From Alphaproteobacteria bacterium (GTDB taxonomy: Bacteria; Pseudomonadota; Alphaproteobacteria; Sphingomonadales; Emcibacteraceae): a stretch of 18,957 nt of DNA. This document shows positions 12,368 through 18,957 of this stretch, piece by piece. The notes beneath the pieces were generated by a model, which had not been told where the DNA came from, searched no databases, and saw nothing but the letters and a program-made list of their open reading frames with translations. The DNA lies in assembly GCA_002749135.1 (NCBI GenBank), contig NVVY01000027.1:6703-25659 (forward strand). The letters run 5' to 3'. Each line of letters begins with the position of its first letter. Positions within the stretch are counted from its first letter, which is position 1. A program made the position numbers and the translations under genes.

Positions 12368-15265
12368 TTACAGTTTGAAGGCAATGCGACCAAAGAAGAA
12401 ACGGCCCGGTATCTGATGGATAGTACCCTCAAAGTTGTTCAGGTCACAGCTTGTACAAAGCGGTGTGTCTTCATCCAGAAAGTTTTGAATGCCAAAAGTA
12501 AAAGATACTTTCTCGTCAAAGGCTTCCGGGCTGTAGGAGAATTGAGCATCGGCATAGAAGACGCTGTCCAAACGGTTGCCAGCTTCGCCGTTTGAGCAAT
12601 TCTGGAAGAACCCGAAGCCGCCTGTTGTACCGCCGCATGCTTCATCAACACCGCTAATATAACGACCTGTTAGCCCGACGGTAAATTCATTGCGCGTCCA
12701 ATCAATGAACAATGAGGATTTGAACTTTACAAATGCCCTTTCCGGAGAGCCAAGTTCAGTACCGGCCCTTTCTGTTACTATTGGATTTCCGTCAATACCA
12801 AGAACAGATTCCGTATATTTAAACAGGTGGGTATTAACCCATTTAAAACGGATTTGACCCCAATCGGCGTCTTGGGTTTCGGCGGTGATGGACCAGTCCA
12901 GACCGTTGGTATCAATGCCGGCAATATTGGTCAGGATACCATCAATCCGGGTCACAGTACCCGTAGCCGTACGGTTTACATTATCACAAAACAGCGGGTT
13001 CAATGTTGCCACACATCCTTCCAATACATCGGAGGCATTGGGGGCCTGAATGGTATCATCCACTGAAATATCATAATAGTTGACTTCAAAGGTAATGCCC
13101 GCAAGTCCTATGGATTCCGCAAAATCCGCCGGACTGTAGGTTACGCCAAGGGTAAAGGTTTTTGAGGTTTCCGGGGTCAGGTTCGGATTACCGCCTGTGG
13201 AGACGCTGATCTGTGCATTCGGTTGCTGATGGTCGGCGGGTACGCCAAGGGTGGCGCAATTTGCCGGTACCGATGAATTTGCCACCGTATCGCAGGGGTC
13301 GGTGATGGTGCCGTCAAAGCGGGAACCGGTATTGAACAGCTCACCAATATTGGGCGCGCGGAATCCTTCGGACCAGTTCCCCCGGAAGGTCAGGTCATCA
13401 TTGATCTGCCAGACGGCACCGAATTTAAAGACAGTTGAACTGCCGGAAGTATTATAATCCGAATAGCGCACCGCCGCATTGACATCAAAGCTTTTGACAA
13501 AATCCATCTCGGCCAAGACGGGAATATTAATTTCACCGTAAAACTCGGTTGCCTCAACCCGTCCTGCGGTCGGGCTTGCCGGGACGCCCGCTGTCTCGCC
13601 GCCGGAAACCACGGAATCCGGTGTGAAAGAGCCAATTTCTTCGCGGTATTCAATGCCAAAGGCGATACCAACCGGGCCTGCGGGCAGGTCTGCGACCTCA
13701 CCGGATACATTGGCCAACAGGTTAAACAGTTCTTGACGACTTTCGTCTTTTTGGGTGAAGGTAATGAAATCCAGCATTTCCCGGGTTATGGTTCCCGCAC
13801 CGCCAAAGAAGTTCAGCGGAACGCAGCCCGGAATAGCCGCACAGGCATCCGGGTCACCAAGGGCGTCGCTGATCCGGCGGGCGTTAAAGGCACCGCGTTT
13901 CACTTGTGAGGCCTGATTTTGGGCAAAGGTGGCGGTTACATCCCAGAAGAAATTCCGATCAGCGAATTTAACGGAACCGTCCAGTGTGTTGGATATATAC
14001 CATGTATCCACATTCTGCTCAAAGATACGCGGTCCGGCTTCGATGGGTCTGCGGCCAAAAAAGACAATGTTACTGCTATCCAGTTGAACACCGAACGGGT
14101 TAAAAGGCTGGTTCGCCGGAATGACAATATTATCAAGCCAGAAACCCGCCCCGGCATCCGGGCCGAGGAACAGGGGTTCCGGCGCGGCCTGACTGACCGA
14201 TTGACGGTTGTTAAAGGAAGCAATGGCCCGGTAGGTAATGTCATCGGTGATGTCATATTCACCCTTGATGAAAACATTCACCCGCTCGCTGGGGGTGAGC
14301 AACTTGTTAAAGGGGGAAAAGTTAAACCGGTCATTGATGGTAAAATTATGAAAATCCGAATTTGGCCCGGTGGGATTCAGCGGGTCAAAGGTGGGAATGG
14401 GCCCGGTACCTGCGTTAGGTGTGATATTAAGGCCGTCAAGGTTCGATCCGTCCTGAAACAGGAAACGGCCTTGCGGTGTGCCGGAAGAGGCCCCCAGATT
14501 TTCAATGGGGATAGCAAAGGCGGATATGGCCCTGTCCCGGGCTTCAACGGCCCCCTGATTGGTATAACTCAGGTCAACAATGAGCCGTCCCCGGTCACTT
14601 TTTGCTCCAAAGCTCAGGTCATATTCCTGGGTGTTGCCGTCGCCCTGTTCATACAGGCCGTAATAGGCACTGCCCCGAAATCCGTCATAATCGTCACGGG
14701 TTTTGATGTTAACCACCCCGGCAATGGCATCAGAGCCATAAATAACCGAGGCTCCGTCCTGCAAAACTTCGATGGTTTTTATGATGCCAATGGGGATCGT
14801 ATTCAAATCCACCGCGCCTGATACACCGGATGCGGAGGAGCCGCGTATCCATCTTTTACCATCCACCAGAACCAGTACCCGCTTGGCGGTCAGGTTACGC
14901 AGGTCGATTTGGGATGACCCGGCGCCAATGCCAGACCCGTCAGGTGGAAACCCAAGGTTCCCGGAGGAGTTATTGGACCGATTATTGGCCGACCCGGATA
15001 TGGGTAGCCTTTGCAGGAAATCTGCAACCGAAACCTGCCCGGATTCCTTGATGTCGTCCGATGTTAAAATCTGTACAGGTGATTTGGCCTTTAGCGGGTC
15101 CTGACGGATGCGGGAGCCGGTAACAATTACTTCTTCAAGGGTTGCTTCGCCATCAGCGGCAAAGGCACTTTGAGTTGGTGCGATCATGGTCAAGGCAAAG
15201 GCAAGAGCCGATGCGCTACCTAAGTATCTATATTTGTGATGATTTTTGATAGTTTTATGGTGCAT
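12368..15265 (-). CDS. TonB-dependent outer-membrane receptor
   Basis: The 965-residue receptor begins with a signal peptide (basic start, hydrophobic LGSASALAFALTMIAP, cut after QSAFA). A TonB box LEEVIVTGSRI follows at about 43-53. The plug domain is next (PVQILTSDDIKESGQVSVADFLQRLP, RVLVLVDGKRW, DGASVIYGSDAIAGVVNIKT), then a 22-strand barrel ending GRFFFGRIAFKL. It imports a ligand across the outer membrane using TonB energy; the TonB-box form and length are those of the large CirA/BtuB-like receptors common in marine alphaproteobacteria. No siderophore, sugar or cobalamin gene lies beside it to suggest the ligand. The start at 15265 has AAGGA with a 7-nt spacer; upstream in-frame ATGs (15280, 15322) lack this. 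Paired cysteines in late barrel loops (VDEACGG, FFQNCSN, LCTSCD) suggest extracellular disulfides. Confidence 0.95.
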   Translation of the reverse strand: MHHKTIKNHHKYRYLGSASALAFALTMIAPTQSAFAADGEATLEEVIVTGSRIRQDPLKAKSPVQILTSDDIKESGQVSVADFLQRLPISGSANNRSNNSSGNLGFPPDGSGIGAGSSQIDLRNLTAKRVLVLVDGKRWIRGSSASGVSGAVDLNTIPIGIIKTIEVLQDGASVIYGSDAIAGVVNIKTRDDYDGFRGSAYYGLYEQGDGNTQEYDLSFGAKSDRGRLIVDLSYTNQGAVEARDRAISAFAIPIENLGASSGTPQGRFLFQDGSNLDGLNITPNAGTGPIPTFDPLNPTGPNSDFHNFTINDRFNFSPFNKLLTPSERVNVFIKGEYDITDDITYRAIASFNNRQSVSQAAPEPLFLGPDAGAGFWLDNIVIPANQPFNPFGVQLDSSNIVFFGRRPIEAGPRIFEQNVDTWYISNTLDGSVKFADRNFFWDVTATFAQNQASQVKRGAFNARRISDALGDPDACAAIPGCVPLNFFGGAGTITREMLDFITFTQKDESRQELFNLLANVSGEVADLPAGPVGIAFGIEYREEIGSFTPDSVVSGGETAGVPASPTAGRVEATEFYGEINIPVLAEMDFVKSFDVNAAVRYSDYNTSGSSTVFKFGAVWQINDDLTFRGNWSEGFRAPNIGELFNTGSRFDGTITDPCDTVANSSVPANCATLGVPADHQQPNAQISVSTGGNPNLTPETSKTFTLGVTYSPADFAESIGLAGITFEVNYYDISVDDTIQAPNASDVLEGCVATLNPLFCDNVNRTATGTVTRIDGILTNIAGIDTNGLDWSITAETQDADWGQIRFKWVNTHLFKYTESVLGIDGNPIVTERAGTELGSPERAFVKFKSSLFIDWTRNEFTVGLTGRYISGVDEACGGTTGGFGFFQNCSNGEAGNRLDSVFYADAQFSYSPEAFDEKVSFTFGIQNFLDEDTPLCTSCDLNNFEGTIHQIPGRFFFGRIAFKL

Positions 15266-15288
15266 AAGATTTTCCTTCATTTGGTGTA

Positions 15289-15320
15289 GAATAATCAAAT
15301 AAAATTTTATTTGATTATTC
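15289..15320. repeat. 32-bp perfect palindrome at the receptor promoter
   Basis: The arm GAATAATCAAATAAAA (15289-15304) is followed directly by its exact reverse complement (15305-15320) with no spacer. It lies 23 bp before the receptor ATG and over the expected transcription start. It is either an operator or a leader hairpin; see findings. Confidence 0.85.
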
Positions 15321-15321
15321 A

Positions 15322-15350
15322 ACTATATGGTTAATAGGAAGGTAGCCCAA
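15322..15350 (-). promoter_or_regulatory. Candidate promoter of the TonB-dependent receptor gene
   Basis: On the minus strand, TTGGGC (15345-15350), 17 bp and TATAGT (15322-15327) fit sigma-70. Transcription would start near 15315, at the edge of the palindrome, giving a leader of about 50 nt. Confidence 0.5.
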
Positions 15351-15393
15351 ATCACTTTAACGTGAAAAATATATGGGTATATTCTTATGTTTA

Positions 15394-15537
15394 CACATGA
15401 ATTAATACTAATTCAACCATATTACCCCATGATTTTTGCTTGCGTAAAAAGCGCATATAACTTGCAGAACAGCAGGAGAAAAAGGGCATGTCATTACCCG
15501 GCATAAATAGCGGCGCCCCGTCCACGGCGGGCAGTTT
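15394..15537 (+). repeat. Direct repeat, left copy (promoter, leader and 17 codons of the 18080 gene)
   Basis: Without gaps this segment matches 17986-18129 at about 128 of 144 positions. The last 84 bp before 15535 match at 81 of 84. It includes a degenerate CtrA box (TTAA-N7-TCAACC, 15402-15418), the AGGAG ribosome site and the codons MSLPGINSGAPSTAGSF. Homology stops at 15537, where flavoprotein-derived sequence begins. Confidence 0.92.
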
Positions 15538-15598
15538 TGACAGTCAGCCCGCCCCCGCAAGGCTTGTCTCTGGGAAAACTTTCCTTGTCAACTATTAA
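15488..15598 (+). pseudogene. 5' fragment of a paralogue of the 18080 gene, fused to antisense flavoprotein sequence
   Basis: The start codon, ribosome site and first 17 codons are those of the intact gene at 18080 (MSLPGINSGAPST, with Ala for Val at residue 14). After the junction near 15537 the frame runs through the antisense of the broken flavoprotein gene for 19 codons to a TAA. The 36-aa product has no family-like body, so this is most likely a dead gene start, although its leader may still be transcribed and translated. Confidence 0.75.
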
Positions 15599-15682
15599 GA
15601 CATTGGCACCGGCCTTTACAAGGTCATAAGCTGCGGATGACCCTGCTGGACCGGCGCCAACGATGACGGCATCATAAATCAA
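15494..15682 (-). pseudogene. Truncated flavoprotein, geranylgeranyl reductase family
   Basis: A TTG start with AGGAG 7 nt upstream begins MIYDAVIVGAGPAGSSAAYDLVKAGANVL. This is the FAD-binding Rossmann motif GxGxxG with the trailing acidic residue (IVDKE). The family motif PRDKPCGGGLTVKT follows. After about 49 codons, where full members have around 400, the frame crosses into the repeat at 15531-15537 and ends after a foreign tail (ARRGRGAAIYAG). Intact relatives reduce isoprenoid double bonds or act on lipids in the membrane. The gene is last in the minus-strand operon with the fatty-acid-modifying enzyme, so it probably once acted with it. The substrate-binding domain is absent, so the remnant cannot be an active enzyme. 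Confidence 0.85.
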
Positions 15683-15711
15683 AATTTGGCTCCTGATCTC
15701 ATAAAGCTGTT

Positions 15712-15873
15712 CTATTTTCCGCCGCAACAGCTGTGAGAATTGTCCGTTTTTTCGGGGGCTGTTTTTTCAACGTCTTTGCTCTGACAGCAACTTCCGCTTT
15801 CCTTCTTTGGTTCCTGATGATCATGGTGACCGCCGCAACAGCCGCTCTGCTGATGTTTGTTGTTTTCTGTCAT
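15712..15873 (-). CDS. 53-aa Cys-Cys/His-rich peptide, putative metal-binding
   Basis: An excellent ribosome site (AAGGAG, 7-nt spacer) precedes an ATG whose first bases overlap the stop of the upstream methyltransferase gene (ATGA). Translational coupling is therefore likely. The product has three Cys-Cys pairs (residues 12-13, 29-30, 49-50). The first and last are in SG-CCGG and SHS-CCGGK, and a histidine cluster (HHDH, 16-19) lies beside the first. The rest is hydrophilic (Lys, Glu, Gln, Ser), with no membrane segment or signal. Such composition suits soft-metal binding or thiol buffering in the cytoplasm, which agrees with the MerR sensor and YHS protein in the operon. I do not recognise a named family. 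Function is inference; existence of the gene is well supported. Confidence 0.8.
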   Translation of the reverse strand: MTENNKHQQSGCCGGHHDHQEPKKESGSCCQSKDVEKTAPEKTDNSHSCCGGK

Positions 15874-17129
15874 GATATTTCTCCTTTTGTAAGTTCTACT
15901 TGAATGACATCAATTCTGCCGCTTCTGAACATGGCAGCACAGGATGTCAGATAAAAACGCCATTTGCGGATAAATTCATCACCAAACCCCATTGCTTTTA
16001 TGTCTTCTATTTTGGCATCAAAATTATCCAGCCATTTTTCCAGCGTGATGGCATAATCCTGCCCGAAGTGAAAAACATCTTTCACCGTAAGGTCAGCTTT
16101 GACCGCTTCCTGTTCGAAACGCTCACGGGACGGTAGCATTCCGCCCGGGAAAATATATTCCCGGATAAAATCGCTGGTTTTGCGGTATTTTTCAAACAGG
16201 TCATCGCGGATGATGATGCTCTGGATCATGGCTGTGCCGCCCGGTTTCAGGTATTTATGAACCGTCGTCATATATTCCGGCCAGAAGGCTTCGCCCACAT
16301 GCTCGAACATGCCGATAGAGACAATATGGTCATATTGACCATCAAGTTCGCGGTAATCCTGCAGGCGTACCTCTGCCGTTTTACTTAGTCCGGCCATATC
16401 AAGTCGTTGCCGGGCCAATGAGGCCTGTTCATCAGAAAGTGTCACTCCTGTGACTTTAAAATCATTGTTGGCGGCGGCTTCCATAAATCCGCCCCAACCG
16501 CAACCAATCTCAAGAATATGATCAGGAGAGGACGTAGAGGAAGGCCGCAGCCTATCCAAAATACGCTGATATTTGGCCTGTTGTGCATCCAGCAAGGATT
16601 TTGAGGCATCGCCGTCAAACAGCGCACTGGAATATGTCATGCCTTTATCCAGCCAGAGCCGGTAAAAATCATTGCCCAGATCATAATGAACCTGGACGTT
16701 TTCCCGGCTTTTCACGCGTGTGTTGGGGGAAAATTTATTTTTCAGGGCATAGGCGAAACGATAGAATATATTGCCACGGTAATAATCCTCGAAAGCCTGA
16801 ATATTTTCGATGGCAACCCGCATAAAATTTTTCAGATCGGGCGTGTCCCACAGGCCGTTAATATAATCCTCGCCTAAGCCAATGTCGCCGCGCTTGAGCA
16901 TATGGTTAAATACTTTCCAGTCATGAACCTGCATTTCCCCCTGTGTTCCGGGGGCTTTGCCAGTATATATGGCTGTTTTGCCATCTGGCAGTTGCAAGTC
17001 AAGCCGACCTCGCTGAATGAAATTTAAAGGCAATAGAGCAGCGGGCATACGTTTGTTTGTATTCGCTGAAACGGGGTTGTCTTGCTCTGGTTCATTTTGT
17101 TGCATATTTTGTTGCATATTTTGTTGCAT
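15870..17129 (-). CDS. Cyclopropane-fatty-acid-synthase family methyltransferase
   Basis: The 419-residue protein fits the SAM-dependent CFA synthase family. It has VHYDLGNDFYRLWLD (147-161), TYSSALF (165-171), SAM motif I EIGCGWGGF (207-215), TGVTLSDEQ (227-235), MFEHVG (274-279) and EYIFPGGMLPS (324-334). CFA synthases add a methylene from SAM across the double bond of unsaturated acyl chains in membrane phospholipids; relatives make methyl-branched or furan acids. The residue matching the bicarbonate-binding cysteine of E. coli Cfa (YSC) is Ser168 here. The start has a near-perfect ribosome site (AAGGAGG, 7-nt spacer). The first 12 residues are MQQN three times. It is the third gene of the MerR operon and overlaps the small Cys-rich gene by 4 bases. 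Exact product is unknown. Confidence 0.9.
   Translation of the reverse strand: MQQNMQQNMQQNEPEQDNPVSANTNKRMPAALLPLNFIQRGRLDLQLPDGKTAIYTGKAPGTQGEMQVHDWKVFNHMLKRGDIGLGEDYINGLWDTPDLKNFMRVAIENIQAFEDYYRGNIFYRFAYALKNKFSPNTRVKSRENVQVHYDLGNDFYRLWLDKGMTYSSALFDGDASKSLLDAQQAKYQRILDRLRPSSTSSPDHILEIGCGWGGFMEAAANNDFKVTGVTLSDEQASLARQRLDMAGLSKTAEVRLQDYRELDGQYDHIVSIGMFEHVGEAFWPEYMTTVHKYLKPGGTAMIQSIIIRDDLFEKYRKTSDFIREYIFPGGMLPSRERFEQEAVKADLTVKDVFHFGQDYAITLEKWLDNFDAKIEDIKAMGFGDEFIRKWRFYLTSCAAMFRSGRIDVIQVELTKGEIS
17094..17129 (-). repeat. 12-bp tandem repeat (x3) at the start of the methyltransferase gene
   Basis: ATGCAACAAAAT is repeated three times exactly, encoding MQQN-MQQN-MQQN and offering three in-frame ATGs. 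Only the first has the AAGGAGG site at good spacing. The unit length keeps the frame if copy number changes. Confidence 0.9.
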
Positions 17130-17173
17130 AATTTTACCTCCTTAATCTCCAGGGTTAAAATTCATTATTTCCA

Positions 17174-17368
17174 TCACGGCGTTTTATTAAACTTATGAAT
17201 ATATAATTCCGGGTTTTCTTCAAATGTCTGACGGCAGGCGTCGGCACAAAAATAATATGTTTTATTCTCATGGTTAATCACCGCCGGTGCCGTATTATAA
17301 CTGACCTCCATGCCGCATACGGGGTCAATATGGGTAAAATCGCTCTTCGCTTTTTTCTTGTATTTCAT
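17174..17368 (-). CDS. YHS domain mini-protein
   Basis: The 64-residue protein is a single YHS domain: DPVCGMEV (Cys18), a short strand region, then TYYFCADACRQTFEENPELY (Cys41, Cys45). The basic start MKYKKKAK is not a signal peptide, so it is cytoplasmic. YHS domains occur alone or fused to copper- and heavy-metal P-type ATPases and are thought to bind metal through these cysteines. It sits 17 bp after merR and 44 bp before the methyltransferase gene in the same direction, so it is part of the operon. No strong ribosome site is visible, so its expression may depend on readthrough from merR translation. Which metal it binds is not decided by sequence. Confidence 0.87.
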   Translation of the reverse strand: MKYKKKAKSDFTHIDPVCGMEVSYNTAPAVINHENKTYYFCADACRQTFEENPELYIHKFNKTP

Positions 17369-17385
17369 AACATAGGGGTCTTTTT

Positions 17386-17793
17386 CTAGGTTTCAGGGTA
17401 CAAATGGTCGAGGATCGGACATTCACTTAAGGGCATGTCGCCGCCCGGACAGGCCTCTGACAGTTTTTCCAGCGCATCATGCATGTGATCCAAGTGACGC
17501 ATATTTTCTTTTGCTTCGGCAATTTTGGCCTCGGTGAGTTCCAGCATGTCGCGGCATGTGGCCGTTTGTGAAGCCTTAAGATTCAATAACATCTTTATTT
17601 CTGCCAGCGTGAAGCCAAGATCCTTGGCGCGGCGGATAAATTTTATGGTTCGAATGCTTTCTGAACCGTAAAGCCGATATCCGGCATTCGATCGATCTTC
17701 CGGCCTGATAATGTCCAACTGCTCATAATAACGGATTGTATCCGTTCTTACCCCGCATTTTTTTGCCAATTGTCCAATCGTAAAAACATTCAT
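17386..17793 (-). CDS. MerR family metal-responsive regulator
   Basis: The 135-residue protein starts MNVFTIGQLAKKCGVRTDTIRYYE, the MerR winged HTH. A dimerisation helix follows (about 84-110), then a metal loop ACPGGDMPLSECPIL. Cysteines 80, 115 and 125 occupy the positions of the ZntR/PbrR/CadR metal site (Cys79, 114, 124 in ZntR). The second adjacent cysteine of ZntR is a proline here, so one divalent soft metal (Zn, Cd, Pb or Hg) per site is expected rather than Cu(I). The start at 17793 has AGGTGA close upstream; an ATG 15 codons earlier lies over the promoter and is not used. It heads the operon with the YHS, methyltransferase, Cys-rich and flavoprotein genes, and probably activates it in response to metal by untwisting the promoter. 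Confidence 0.9.
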   Translation of the reverse strand: MNVFTIGQLAKKCGVRTDTIRYYEQLDIIRPEDRSNAGYRLYGSESIRTIKFIRRAKDLGFTLAEIKMLLNLKASQTATCRDMLELTEAKIAEAKENMRHLDHMHDALEKLSEACPGGDMPLSECPILDHLYPET

Positions 17794-17819
17794 TAGAATC
17801 ACCTTTATTAACAAAGAAC

Positions 17820-17851
17820 AGTATGAACCTATGACCATACTCCAAGGTCAA
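17820..17851 (-). promoter_or_regulatory. MerR-type promoter of the operon
   Basis: On the minus strand, TTGACC (17846-17851) is followed by TCATAC after 19 bp, or CATACT after 20 bp (17820-17826). This overlong spacer is the mark of MerR-activated promoters. The spacer holds an imperfect dyad around GTATGGTCATA. The merR ATG follows about 27 bp downstream. Confidence 0.75.
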
Positions 17852-17947
17852 GTATATAATTACCTAATATTTTATGGGGATTTCGGATAGATACAGAACA
17901 GTAGGAAAATAGGGGGATTTTGGCGATTTAAAATTATAGCCTTGGCA

Positions 17948-17980
17948 GCACCGCCCGGTTTGATCAGACCAGGTGCTTTT
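17948..17980. terminator. Hairpin with short T run, possible terminator
   Basis: GCACC (17948-17952) pairs with GGTGC (17972-17976). Inside it GGTTT (17957-17961) pairs with AGACC (17966-17970) around GATC, and four T follow on the plus strand. It lies between merR and the 18080 gene, upstream of the CtrA box. No plus-strand gene ends just before it, so its role is unclear. The rest of the gap 17852-17985 shows nothing else. Confidence 0.3.
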
Positions 17981-17985
17981 GCAGC

Positions 17986-18129
17986 CACATGTGTTAACAC
18001 TAATTTAACCATTCTTCCCCATGATATCAGCTCGCGTAAAATGCGCATATGACTTGCAGAACAGCAGGAGAAAAAGGACATGTCATTACCCGGCATAAAT
18101 AGCGGCGCCCCGTCCACGGTGGGCAGCTT
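17986..18129 (+). repeat. Direct repeat, right copy (promoter, leader and 17 codons)
   Basis: This is the counterpart of 15394-15537 in the same orientation, 2592 bp away, about 89% identical without gaps. Here the repeat continues into the full gene. Identity is highest from the leader through the 17th codon. Confidence 0.92.
17994..18012 (+). promoter_or_regulatory. CtrA binding site
   Basis: TTAA (17994-17997), seven bases, then TTAACCAT (18005-18012) matches the full alphaproteobacterial CtrA consensus TTAA-N7-TTAACC. It lies 68-86 bp before the 18080 start codon, a normal place for CtrA activation overlapping a -35 region. The left repeat keeps the site with one change in the second half. 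Confidence 0.75.
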
Positions 18130-18808
18130 CGCGCAGCTACAGTATTTTCAGGCAAATTTCAGCTATTCCAAAACCAGTCAGTTTCAGGCGACCTCTGCCG
18201 ATGGTCAGCAAACGGCAAGCTTCAGCTCTGCCGTGACCCTGTCGCTTTCGGTTACGGCGATTAACGTCACCTCTGGGTTCCTTGCGGCGAAGAAGACCAT
18301 TGATGCAACCGCACCGACGCCGCCGCCGCCGGCCAATGGCAATTCCCGGGCCAAGGGCATTGAAGATGCGCTGAAAGGCTTGATCAAGGAATTAAGGGAT
18401 AATAATGGCTTGACCGATAAGGTCGCAAAAAGGTTATTCAAGCTTGTGGGGGCCCTGAATTCAGCCAGAGGGACAAATAAGCCGCTTGGTACATTGGATC
18501 CAAATGCGCGCGATAAGGTGCGTACCGCCCGTCAGCAGGTCAATGATTTCTTCCAACAAAAAAATTCGACCCCGCTGGTCAACAAGGATTTGACCAATTT
18601 TATCGAACTGGTATCAAAACTTGAAACTTTGCGCGAATTTGTCCTGAAGACCACCGACCTGCTTGCAGCCCTGAAGGGGGGCGGTGACGGTGATGACAAT
18701 GGCGACGTGGAAGAAGTGGAAAGTGAAACAGAATCCCAATCAGAGGCCACTCATCAACAACCTGCCAACGCTAATCAACAACCTGTCCCGGTTAACGTTA
18801 CGGCGTAA
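18080..18808 (+). CDS. Hypothetical protein, CtrA-linked, 242 aa
   Basis: I do not recognise a family. The ATG is preceded by AGGAG (9-nt spacer). Residues 1-70 are rich in Ser, Thr, Gln and Phe with alternating pattern (FQANFSYSKTSQFQATS, AVTLSLSVTAINV), suggesting beta strands. Residues 77-87 form a proline linker (TAPTPPPPANG). Residues 88-198 are largely helical with regular charge (IEDALKGLIKELRD, LVSKLETLREFVLKTTDLL). Residues 199-242 are a disordered tail, first acidic (GGDGDDNGDVEEVESETES) and then Gln/Asn/Pro-rich. There are no cysteines, no signal peptide and no membrane helix. Its promoter, leader and first 17 codons are duplicated at 15394. CtrA control would place it with motility, surface, cell-cycle or gene-transfer functions, which is inference. 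Its 3' end overlaps the convergent gene by 11 bp. Confidence 0.8.
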   Translation: MSLPGINSGAPSTVGSFAQLQYFQANFSYSKTSQFQATSADGQQTASFSSAVTLSLSVTAINVTSGFLAAKKTIDATAPTPPPPANGNSRAKGIEDALKGLIKELRDNNGLTDKVAKRLFKLVGALNSARGTNKPLGTLDPNARDKVRTARQQVNDFFQQKNSTPLVNKDLTNFIELVSKLETLREFVLKTTDLLAALKGGGDGDDNGDVEEVESETESQSEATHQQPANANQQPVPVNVTA

Positions 18809-18957
18809 GAGCCGCCCGGCGAATTATGCGGAATGAGGCGGTGCTTTGGTCGCCGCATCCTTTGGGCAGGAATATCTGACCGGTTTTCTTGAGGGTTACC
18901 GTGTCATAGGTTGCCACGTCACAGGCAGCCCCGCCCACATAGACCTCATGGCCATCC
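18798..18957 (-). CDS. C-terminal part of an unidentified protein
   Basis: A minus-strand frame is open from the window edge for 52 residues to a TAA. It reads VYVGGAACDVATYDTV, then TLKKTGQIFLPKGCGD, then QSTASFRII and RRAALTP. The ordered glycine, aspartate and aromatic pattern and two cysteines look like a conserved enzyme terminus, but I cannot name the family. It overlaps the end of the 18080 gene by 11 bp tail to tail. The start lies outside the window. Confidence 0.55.
   Translation of the reverse strand, partial: DGHEVYVGGAACDVATYDTVTLKKTGQIFLPKGCGDQSTASFRIIRRAALTP

Follow-up and report, generated by a model that had tools for sequence, protein, structure and literature searches.

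The locus analyzed here raises the question of how a MerR-controlled gene cluster came to lie between two copies of the start of another gene, and in which order the underlying events took place. The window, i.e., the whole stretch of 18,957 nucleotides that we analyzed, stems from an alphaproteobacterium of the family Emcibacteraceae. A repeat search and alignment bore out the originally proposed pair of direct repeats: two 144-bp copies (15394-15537 and 17986-18129, both plus strand), which are spaced 2592 bp apart, agree at 128 of 144 positions (89%, 16 mismatches) and share a core (15451-15534) that is identical at 81 of 84 positions, with mismatches at 15459, 15486 and 15528. Against the retrieved loci, the repeat pair gave a BLAST E value of about 1e-48, far below chance expectation. 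The right copy comprises an intact CtrA-like box (17994-18008), a leader, an ATG and the first codons of an intact gene, here called gene X, into which it continues. The left copy is a dead fragment that contains the leader, the ATG and about 17 codons of gene X, as had been predicted for each repeat, but its CtrA-like box (15402-15416) has decayed. Judged by the consensus TTAA-N7-TTAA, which we take to define such boxes, its second half-site is gone, with a C at 15414 in place of the T found in the right copy, in the related genome G009 and in all seven outgroup leaders. When the genome was searched with positions 17900-18300, only the two known places were recovered at E ≤ 0.001. A candidate for a third gene X leader at 17894-17918 was discarded (shuffles gave p = 0.01 when it was compared with the repeat alone, 0.08 with the repeat plus gene X, and 0.40 for its G009 counterpart).

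The repeats enclose, as anticipated, five coding segments, all on the minus strand. The first encodes a MerR-family regulator (17386-17793), whose start was set at 17793 because the listed open reading frame start at 17838 overlaps the likely promoter (17820-17851, minus strand). The latter consists of TTGACC, a 20-bp spacer and CATACT, an arrangement that we assume to represent a MerR-type promoter motif; its G009 equivalent has CATAAT. Then follow the genes for a 64-residue YHS-domain protein (17174-17368), a methyltransferase of the CMAS/cyclopropane-fatty-acid-synthase family (CFA; 15870-17129), which occurs only once in the genome, and a 53-residue cysteine-rich peptide with three CC pairs (15712-15873), which is also found in G009 and has no Pfam match. 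The last segment is the N-terminal remnant of a geranylgeranyl-reductase-like flavoprotein (15535-15727), which is cut at the left junction and has an intact homolog in the genome G006 (L191 8153-9454). Since the flavoprotein reading may extend some bases into the left repeat, the position of this junction is uncertain by roughly 10 bp. The sequence GGGCAG at 15529-15534 is a possible short shared stretch at this junction. On the other side, the segment 17910-17985 has a terminator-like hairpin followed by TTTT and cannot be clearly matched to either G009 locus. The cluster is probably metal-responsive; our literature search retrieved nothing that joins MerR, a YHS domain and cyclopropane-fatty-acyl-phospholipid synthase. 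An assignment as a defense system (PADLOC: merR as mads_1, CFA as mads_2) was rejected because neither model is matched over its full length and the similarity appears to stem from shared HTH and methyltransferase domains. A cassette common to other bacteria was not apparent either: among the 13 of 80 retained CFA loci that were checked for companion proteins (L098-L109 and L155), only L098 was positive, and this is the G009 contig itself. All CFA matches in plasmid records were below 60% identity.

Gene X (18080-18808, plus strand) encodes a protein of 242 residues that has no Pfam or NCBIfam match and whose predicted model (mean pLDDT 39) is too poor for a fold search. Matches were found in 9 of 60 genomes, including the window's own, with one per genome and all within a single genus. 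The gene shows raised divergence from its G009 counterpart. However, in the half beside the repeat, silent divergence is at background (0.226), and within the gene it is high only at 18446-18700 (0.61), which led us to dismiss the idea that gene X contains foreign donor DNA.

The order of events can be addressed because a filled site, an empty site, an orthologous operon elsewhere and outgroups are all at hand. The empty site with a single gene copy that had been predicted for a related strain is present in G009, a member of the same genus: it contains one repeat copy, and the TonB-dependent receptor gene (12368-15322 in the window, minus strand) adjoins gene X, with no operon in between. In a tree of the leader sequences (145 columns, with the gap column outside the model) that included both copies, G009 and seven outgroup leaders, the left and right copies were joined with a support of 94/92, although the key branch stayed under the program's starred level, and a pairing of G009 with either copy was rejected (p-AU 0.024 for both alternatives). 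Moreover, the two copies have in common three derived states that are absent from G009 and also from most outgroups, namely an A at 15410, one extra A at 15479 and a C at 15519. Since the tree joins the two copies and rejects G009 with either, these comparisons lend modest support to a duplication in the lineage of the window genome, later than the separation from G009, whose site was thus probably never filled. We had initially favored a deletion between the repeats as the origin of the single copy in G009, which matches the left and then the right copy with 10 mismatches, as opposed to 13 for the left and 15 for the right copy alone. Yet this mosaic pattern is not significant (permutation p = 0.12) and conflicts with the derived states shared by the two copies.

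In two relatives, the cluster occupies different chromosomal positions and therefore appears to be mobile, although no enzyme for movement was found in it. The block common to the window and G009 (15575-17909, minus strand) is located at another locus in the latter (L042 8717-11041, 90.7% DNA identity), whose counterpart in the window genome lacks the operon. The ends of the two blocks differ, and the window copy retains about 37 bp more of the flavoprotein, so that neither known site can simply be the source of the other. Silent divergence between the two operons (CFA 0.26, YHS 0.20, merR 0.33) falls within the background set by 13 other genes (0.166-0.338), which suggests relocation. With an orthologue elsewhere in G009 at background divergence, the inserted block is likely to have originated inside the same lineage. 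In G006, a partial operon that includes an intact flavoprotein gene lies at a third place, and none of the operon proteins was found in the corresponding regions of G010, G009, G000 and G005. The CFA gene of G006 has fewer silent differences than three genes of the neighboring region, making a transfer between lineages possible. The G009 operon is itself flanked by a 30-bp imperfect direct repeat (23/30; reached in 0 of 1000 shuffles), whose inner 12 bp can also be read as decayed flavoprotein sequence. The flanking duplication would thus measure 18-30 bp at best, an uncertain value, compared with 144 bp in the window. The original prediction would have been refuted by related genomes with the operon and both repeats at unrelated places. 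This is borne out only halfway: the operon does lie elsewhere in G009 and G006, but such a distribution indicates that it moves and does not contradict an insertion.

No transposase domain, integrase or replication gene was detected in the five insert proteins. Inverted repeats of at least 20 bp were absent from 14000-18957, and none of six inverted pairs of 14-21 bp in 15394-18129 lies at both ends of the insert. Ku was found in none of 16 genomes of the genus, several of them incomplete, but in the Bacillus subtilis control, which argues against classical end joining. On balance, we consider it somewhat probable that the locus arose by an insertion with long target duplication, which relocated a self-contained MerR operon of about 2.4 kb through illegitimate joining. 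After the split from G009, the block would have been inserted between the TonB-dependent receptor gene and gene X, thereby duplicating about 144 bp of the target, such that the right copy preserved the whole of gene X with its own promoter and the left copy became a dead fragment. Most likely, the block was captured illegitimately at a staggered break or a broken fork, where fill-in would duplicate the target and the ends may have been joined through a short shared sequence. This explanation is based on draft genomes and on the short alignment behind the tree.

Among the alternatives, the best surviving one, although still unlikely, is a one-sided homologous import. Here, linear DNA from a sibling in which the operon neighbors gene X would have recombined at one end within gene X and been joined illegitimately at the other end to codon 17 of the resident gene, leaving the resident start as the left remnant. 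Such a process has been described for natural transformation and conjugation in the account given by PMC3240628, and the GGGCAG motif may be shared at the left junction. A suitable neighborhood probably exists, given that the gene X match P0002 and the CFA match P0018 both list a hydrothermal-vent contig of 12,838 bp, which, by its equal length, is probably one and the same. A point against our preferred reading is that the 5' part of the right copy is unusually diverged, with 12 of 66 positions differing from G009, compared with 7 of 66 for the left copy and 13 of 66 between the two copies, and would be better explained by an imported allele. However, an import requires an earlier insertion in the donor and merely moves the question back, and the silent divergence of gene X beside the repeat is no higher than background. 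Slightly more doubtful still is the Campbell-type integration put forward originally, in which a circle bearing the operon along with the beginning of gene X underwent a single crossover with the start of the chromosomal gene. This mechanism produces direct repeats of such a kind, could account for the diverged 5' part as donor DNA and agrees with the best fit of G009 to a left-then-right pattern. Nevertheless, that pattern lacks significance, the insert proteins include no integrase or replication gene, and the circle would need gene X DNA beside the flavoprotein fragment, an arrangement found nowhere else. Furthermore, the two copies group as sisters, and their shared derived states speak against reciprocal recombinants. 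The operon is an insertion, as proposed; a circle could have delivered it, but nothing found requires one. It is quite improbable that the insertion at the gene X site is ancestral and that G009 lost it when the repeats recombined, while keeping or reacquiring the operon at another locus. The empty site has the form expected from such a loss, and the vent contig suggests that the window genome is not alone in having this arrangement, but the three states common to both copies are missing in G009 and most outgroups, and the trees with G009 beside either copy were rejected. Tandem gene X paralogs, of which the left one was disrupted afterwards by a deletion or by insertion of the operon, would account for the gene X start in the left copy, but the single match in each of the nine genomes and the single copy in G009 make this version of the original prediction very improbable. 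Finally, an assembly artefact is hardly credible even for a draft genome of 57 contigs and 88.77% completeness, as the copies differ at 16 sites, CFA occurs once and a separate vent contig appears to carry CFA and gene X together.

An insertion with long target duplication would constitute a case of bacterial gene movement without a visible mobile element. If correct, it would add a regulatory operon to the restriction genes for which this type of event is known, and it would show how such an insertion can be harmless, since the promoter and beginning of the struck gene are restored by the duplication. As originally pointed out, a recombination event joining the two repeats would in theory restore a single intact gene X, and the remaining repeats should permit clean loss or amplification of the operon. 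More speculatively, and with rather little confidence, the cluster could be a nomadic metal-response unit under MerR control that lacks its own recombinase and has changed its position repeatedly inside a single genus (three genomes, three sites). Capture at DNA breaks would underlie these moves, with target duplications of varying length that let the genes at its landing sites survive.

Transposons and insertion sequences also duplicate their target on insertion, but 144 bp is far longer than their usual target duplications, and, unlike in these elements, no transposase or terminal inverted repeats were found in the insert. A different parallel is provided by transposed genes in Arabidopsis, whose flanking direct repeats match an unoccupied target in a sister species and for which excision as a circle and reinsertion have been proposed (Woodhouse et al., 2010; PMC2869330). 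These cases resemble ours in the flanking direct repeats and the unoccupied target of a relative, but they concern a plant nuclear genome and often derive from tandem gene arrays. Homology-facilitated illegitimate recombination, as presented in PMC3240628, could yield a similar product through one homologous and one illegitimate junction, but it presupposes a donor in which the operon adjoins gene X, which in our case we can only infer. The closest match is the insertion with long target duplication reported from Helicobacter pylori, where it mostly involves restriction-modification genes (Nobusato et al., 2000, Gene 259:99-108, as cited in PMC1643837 and PMC3031569). According to these accounts, the inserted block is likewise absent from a close relative that has one target copy, and is flanked by a long direct target duplication without known mobile-element ends. 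Restriction-modification cargo appears in PMC3031569 as a frequent but not a defining feature of such insertions; here, the cargo comprises merR, YHS, CFA, the cysteine-rich peptide and a piece of the flavoprotein gene. Unlike the H. pylori cases as reported in these sources, the present one concerns an alphaproteobacterial genus and a MerR operon, which relatives carry at other loci.

The minus-strand operon lying between two direct repeats is a real insertion in the window and sits at different places in related genomes. As described in the original prediction, the repeat copies (15394-15537 and 17986-18129) face the same way, agree at 128 of 144 positions and are spaced by 2592 bp (BLAST E ~1e-48). 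A search of the window genome with the stretch 17900-18300 returned just these two places at E ≤ 0.001. The empty site with one repeat copy that had been anticipated in a relative is present in genome G009, where the counterparts of window 13986-15537 and 17986-18957 adjoin each other and share a single copy. In this genome, the TonB receptor gene (12368-15322, minus strand) and gene X (18080-18808, plus strand; 242 amino acids) are neighbours, the left flank matches the window at 93.2% over 9.3 kb, and a 20-kb stretch around the two genes contains no match to the operon proteins.

Gene X has a match in nine of 60 genomes (window genome counted), one in each and all within one genus. In one of them, G015, it neighbours a TetR gene at a distance of ~0.8 kb (L048 1065-3093), and neither the TonB gene nor the operon proteins match its contig. 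Since the TonB receptor gene is missing there, gains or losses at this spot extend beyond the operon. Relatives of the gene X protein (P0002; 91.9% identity over the aligned part, 89% in the database listing) and of the CFA protein of the operon (P0018; 92%) are each listed, from an independent assembly, on a contig of 12,838 bp with the label hydrothermal vent metagenome, so that one contig likely carries the two genes together. In a TonB search giving one contig per match, this contig was absent among the best 120 of 3920 matching proteins. Gene X itself looks mosaic: its first half shows background silent divergence from G009 (0.226), as against 0.61 for 18446-18700, and P0002 agrees with the window protein at N-terminal residues but with G009 at C-terminal ones. 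Directly before its start, a leader of the form GCAGAA(N)AGCAGGAG (18054-18070) is kept in both repeat copies and in all eight aligned relatives, including distant ones (L043, L046-L052). Upstream of it, both arms of a short palindrome around GCGTAAAATGCGC seem, by eye, to vary jointly. At the other flank, a self match revealed a palindrome of 38 bp, near-perfect at 94.7%, where the TonB receptor gene starts (15286-15323).

The repeats enclose genes for a MerR-family regulator, a YHS protein, a CMAS-family methyltransferase (CFA), a 53-residue Cys-rich peptide and the N-terminus alone of a geranylgeranyl-reductase-like flavoprotein. The start of the regulator is best placed at 17793 (minus strand), because a promoter (TTGACC, 20 bp, CATACT; 17851 to 17820), which we take to be of MerR type and which has a match in G009, lies just upstream. 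ZntR, MerR and CueR models top its NCBIfam ranking, all below their cut-offs, and a metal response of the operon appears likely. The merR relatives of G006 (78%) and G010 (77%) stand in a different cluster (L076 3882-8400; L077 5269-9771), together with what is presumably a copper P-type ATPase with a YHS-like domain. At the CFA gene start, three 12-bp direct repeats (17094-17134) encode MQQN repeats, with one unit fewer in G009 and P0018.

G009 carries its operon at a second site, flanked by genes for a GST and an NAD(P)-binding protein (record JAADFR010000154.1; window 15575-17909 versus L042 8717-11041, 90.7%). At the same site, the window genome has the GST gene end, ~10 bp and then 45 bp that survive of the NAD(P)-binding region; a tRNA-Ser (GGA) gene adjoins this unoccupied site after the GST gene (L078 9045-9134). 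The GST gene was found in just two of 16 genus genomes (E ≤ 1e-30), too few to polarise the site. At silent sites, the operon genes of the two genomes (CFA 0.26, YHS 0.20, merR 0.33) have diverged within the range of 13 other genes (0.166-0.338; gene X, at 0.351, set aside), so that the two operons look like relocated orthologues. The blocks do not end at the same points: the window copy retains ~37 bp more of the flavoprotein, and no clear counterpart of window 17910-17985 exists in G009. On either side of the G009 block lies one copy of an imperfect 30-bp direct repeat (23/30), and none of 1000 shuffles scored as high. Since the inner 12 bp of this repeat could equally represent decayed flavoprotein, the G009 duplication measures 18-30 bp at best, compared with 144 bp in the window.

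When the flavoprotein remnant was searched against 60 genomes, an intact homologue emerged at a third place, in G006. It adjoins a Cys-rich peptide and the end of a CFA gene (final 106 aligned codons, 86%), which is cut off by the contig edge and is missed by a CFA search at E ≤ 1e-60. This operon is read from one side, its far side lying beyond the assembled contig. Collinearity between G006 and G010 (91.8% across 8 kb) ends at the stop codon of the neighbouring gene; from there on, G006 has the operon and G010 RHS-like sequence. The latter is accompanied by a TGGGGTCAGAGTAAATTGATT motif in both orientations (L213 ~2650-2850), perhaps a mobile-element end. The operon proteins had no match in the regions of G010, G009, G000 and G005, the four examined of 12 genomes with the neighbouring gene. 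Transfer of the operon between lineages is possible, because the silent difference of CFA between G006 and the window genome (pS 0.46) is below that of three genes of the region (0.61-0.74); a 51-codon flavoprotein piece gives 0.64.

Either G009 never had the window insertion, or it once had it and lost it through recombination between the repeats. The single copy of G009 is closer to the left copy over its 5' part and to the right copy over its 3' part, the pattern of a deletion product, but a permutation test of this pattern gave p = 0.12. Moreover, with the leaders of seven further genomes serving as outgroups, the two copies share three states missing from G009 and most or all outgroups: A at 15410 (6/7 outgroups have T, as does G009), one extra A at 15479 (absent from G009 and 7/7) and C at 15519 (6/7 have A, as does G009). 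A maximum-likelihood tree (145 of 149 columns) joined the copies with support of 94/92, below the program's starred level, and placing G009 with either copy was rejected (p-AU 0.024). Given the shared states and this test, the duplication probably arose after the window lineage had split from G009.

The simplest account of the insertion is that a random-ended block was captured at a staggered or fork-associated break, where fill-in would have produced the target duplication. Searches for a transposase domain among the five proteins of the insert, for inverted repeats at its ends and for Ku across 16 genomes of the genus, several of which are incomplete, were all negative; joining would therefore need a route other than Ku. 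We infer this joining step, as well as an earlier home of the operon. HMMER stretches the flavoprotein match to 15527, so that the left junction may fall within a short shared stretch, GGGCAG. The left copy has lost half of its CtrA-like box since duplication, as expected of a dead fragment. The unusually diverged 5' part of the right copy (12/66 versus G009; left copy, 7/66) counts against plain duplication. Rival accounts are one-sided homologous import and the integration of a circle carrying the operon.

The window case has a described counterpart in insertion with long target duplication, proposed for H. pylori (Nobusato et al., 2000, as described in PMC1643837 and PMC3031569), and Woodhouse et al. 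(2010) report a like pattern in Arabidopsis. Of the defining features of this kind, the window case shows a close relative with one target copy and no block, and a long direct duplication flanking the block; its cargo differs from the usual restriction-modification genes. The window insertion belongs to a described but little-understood kind.
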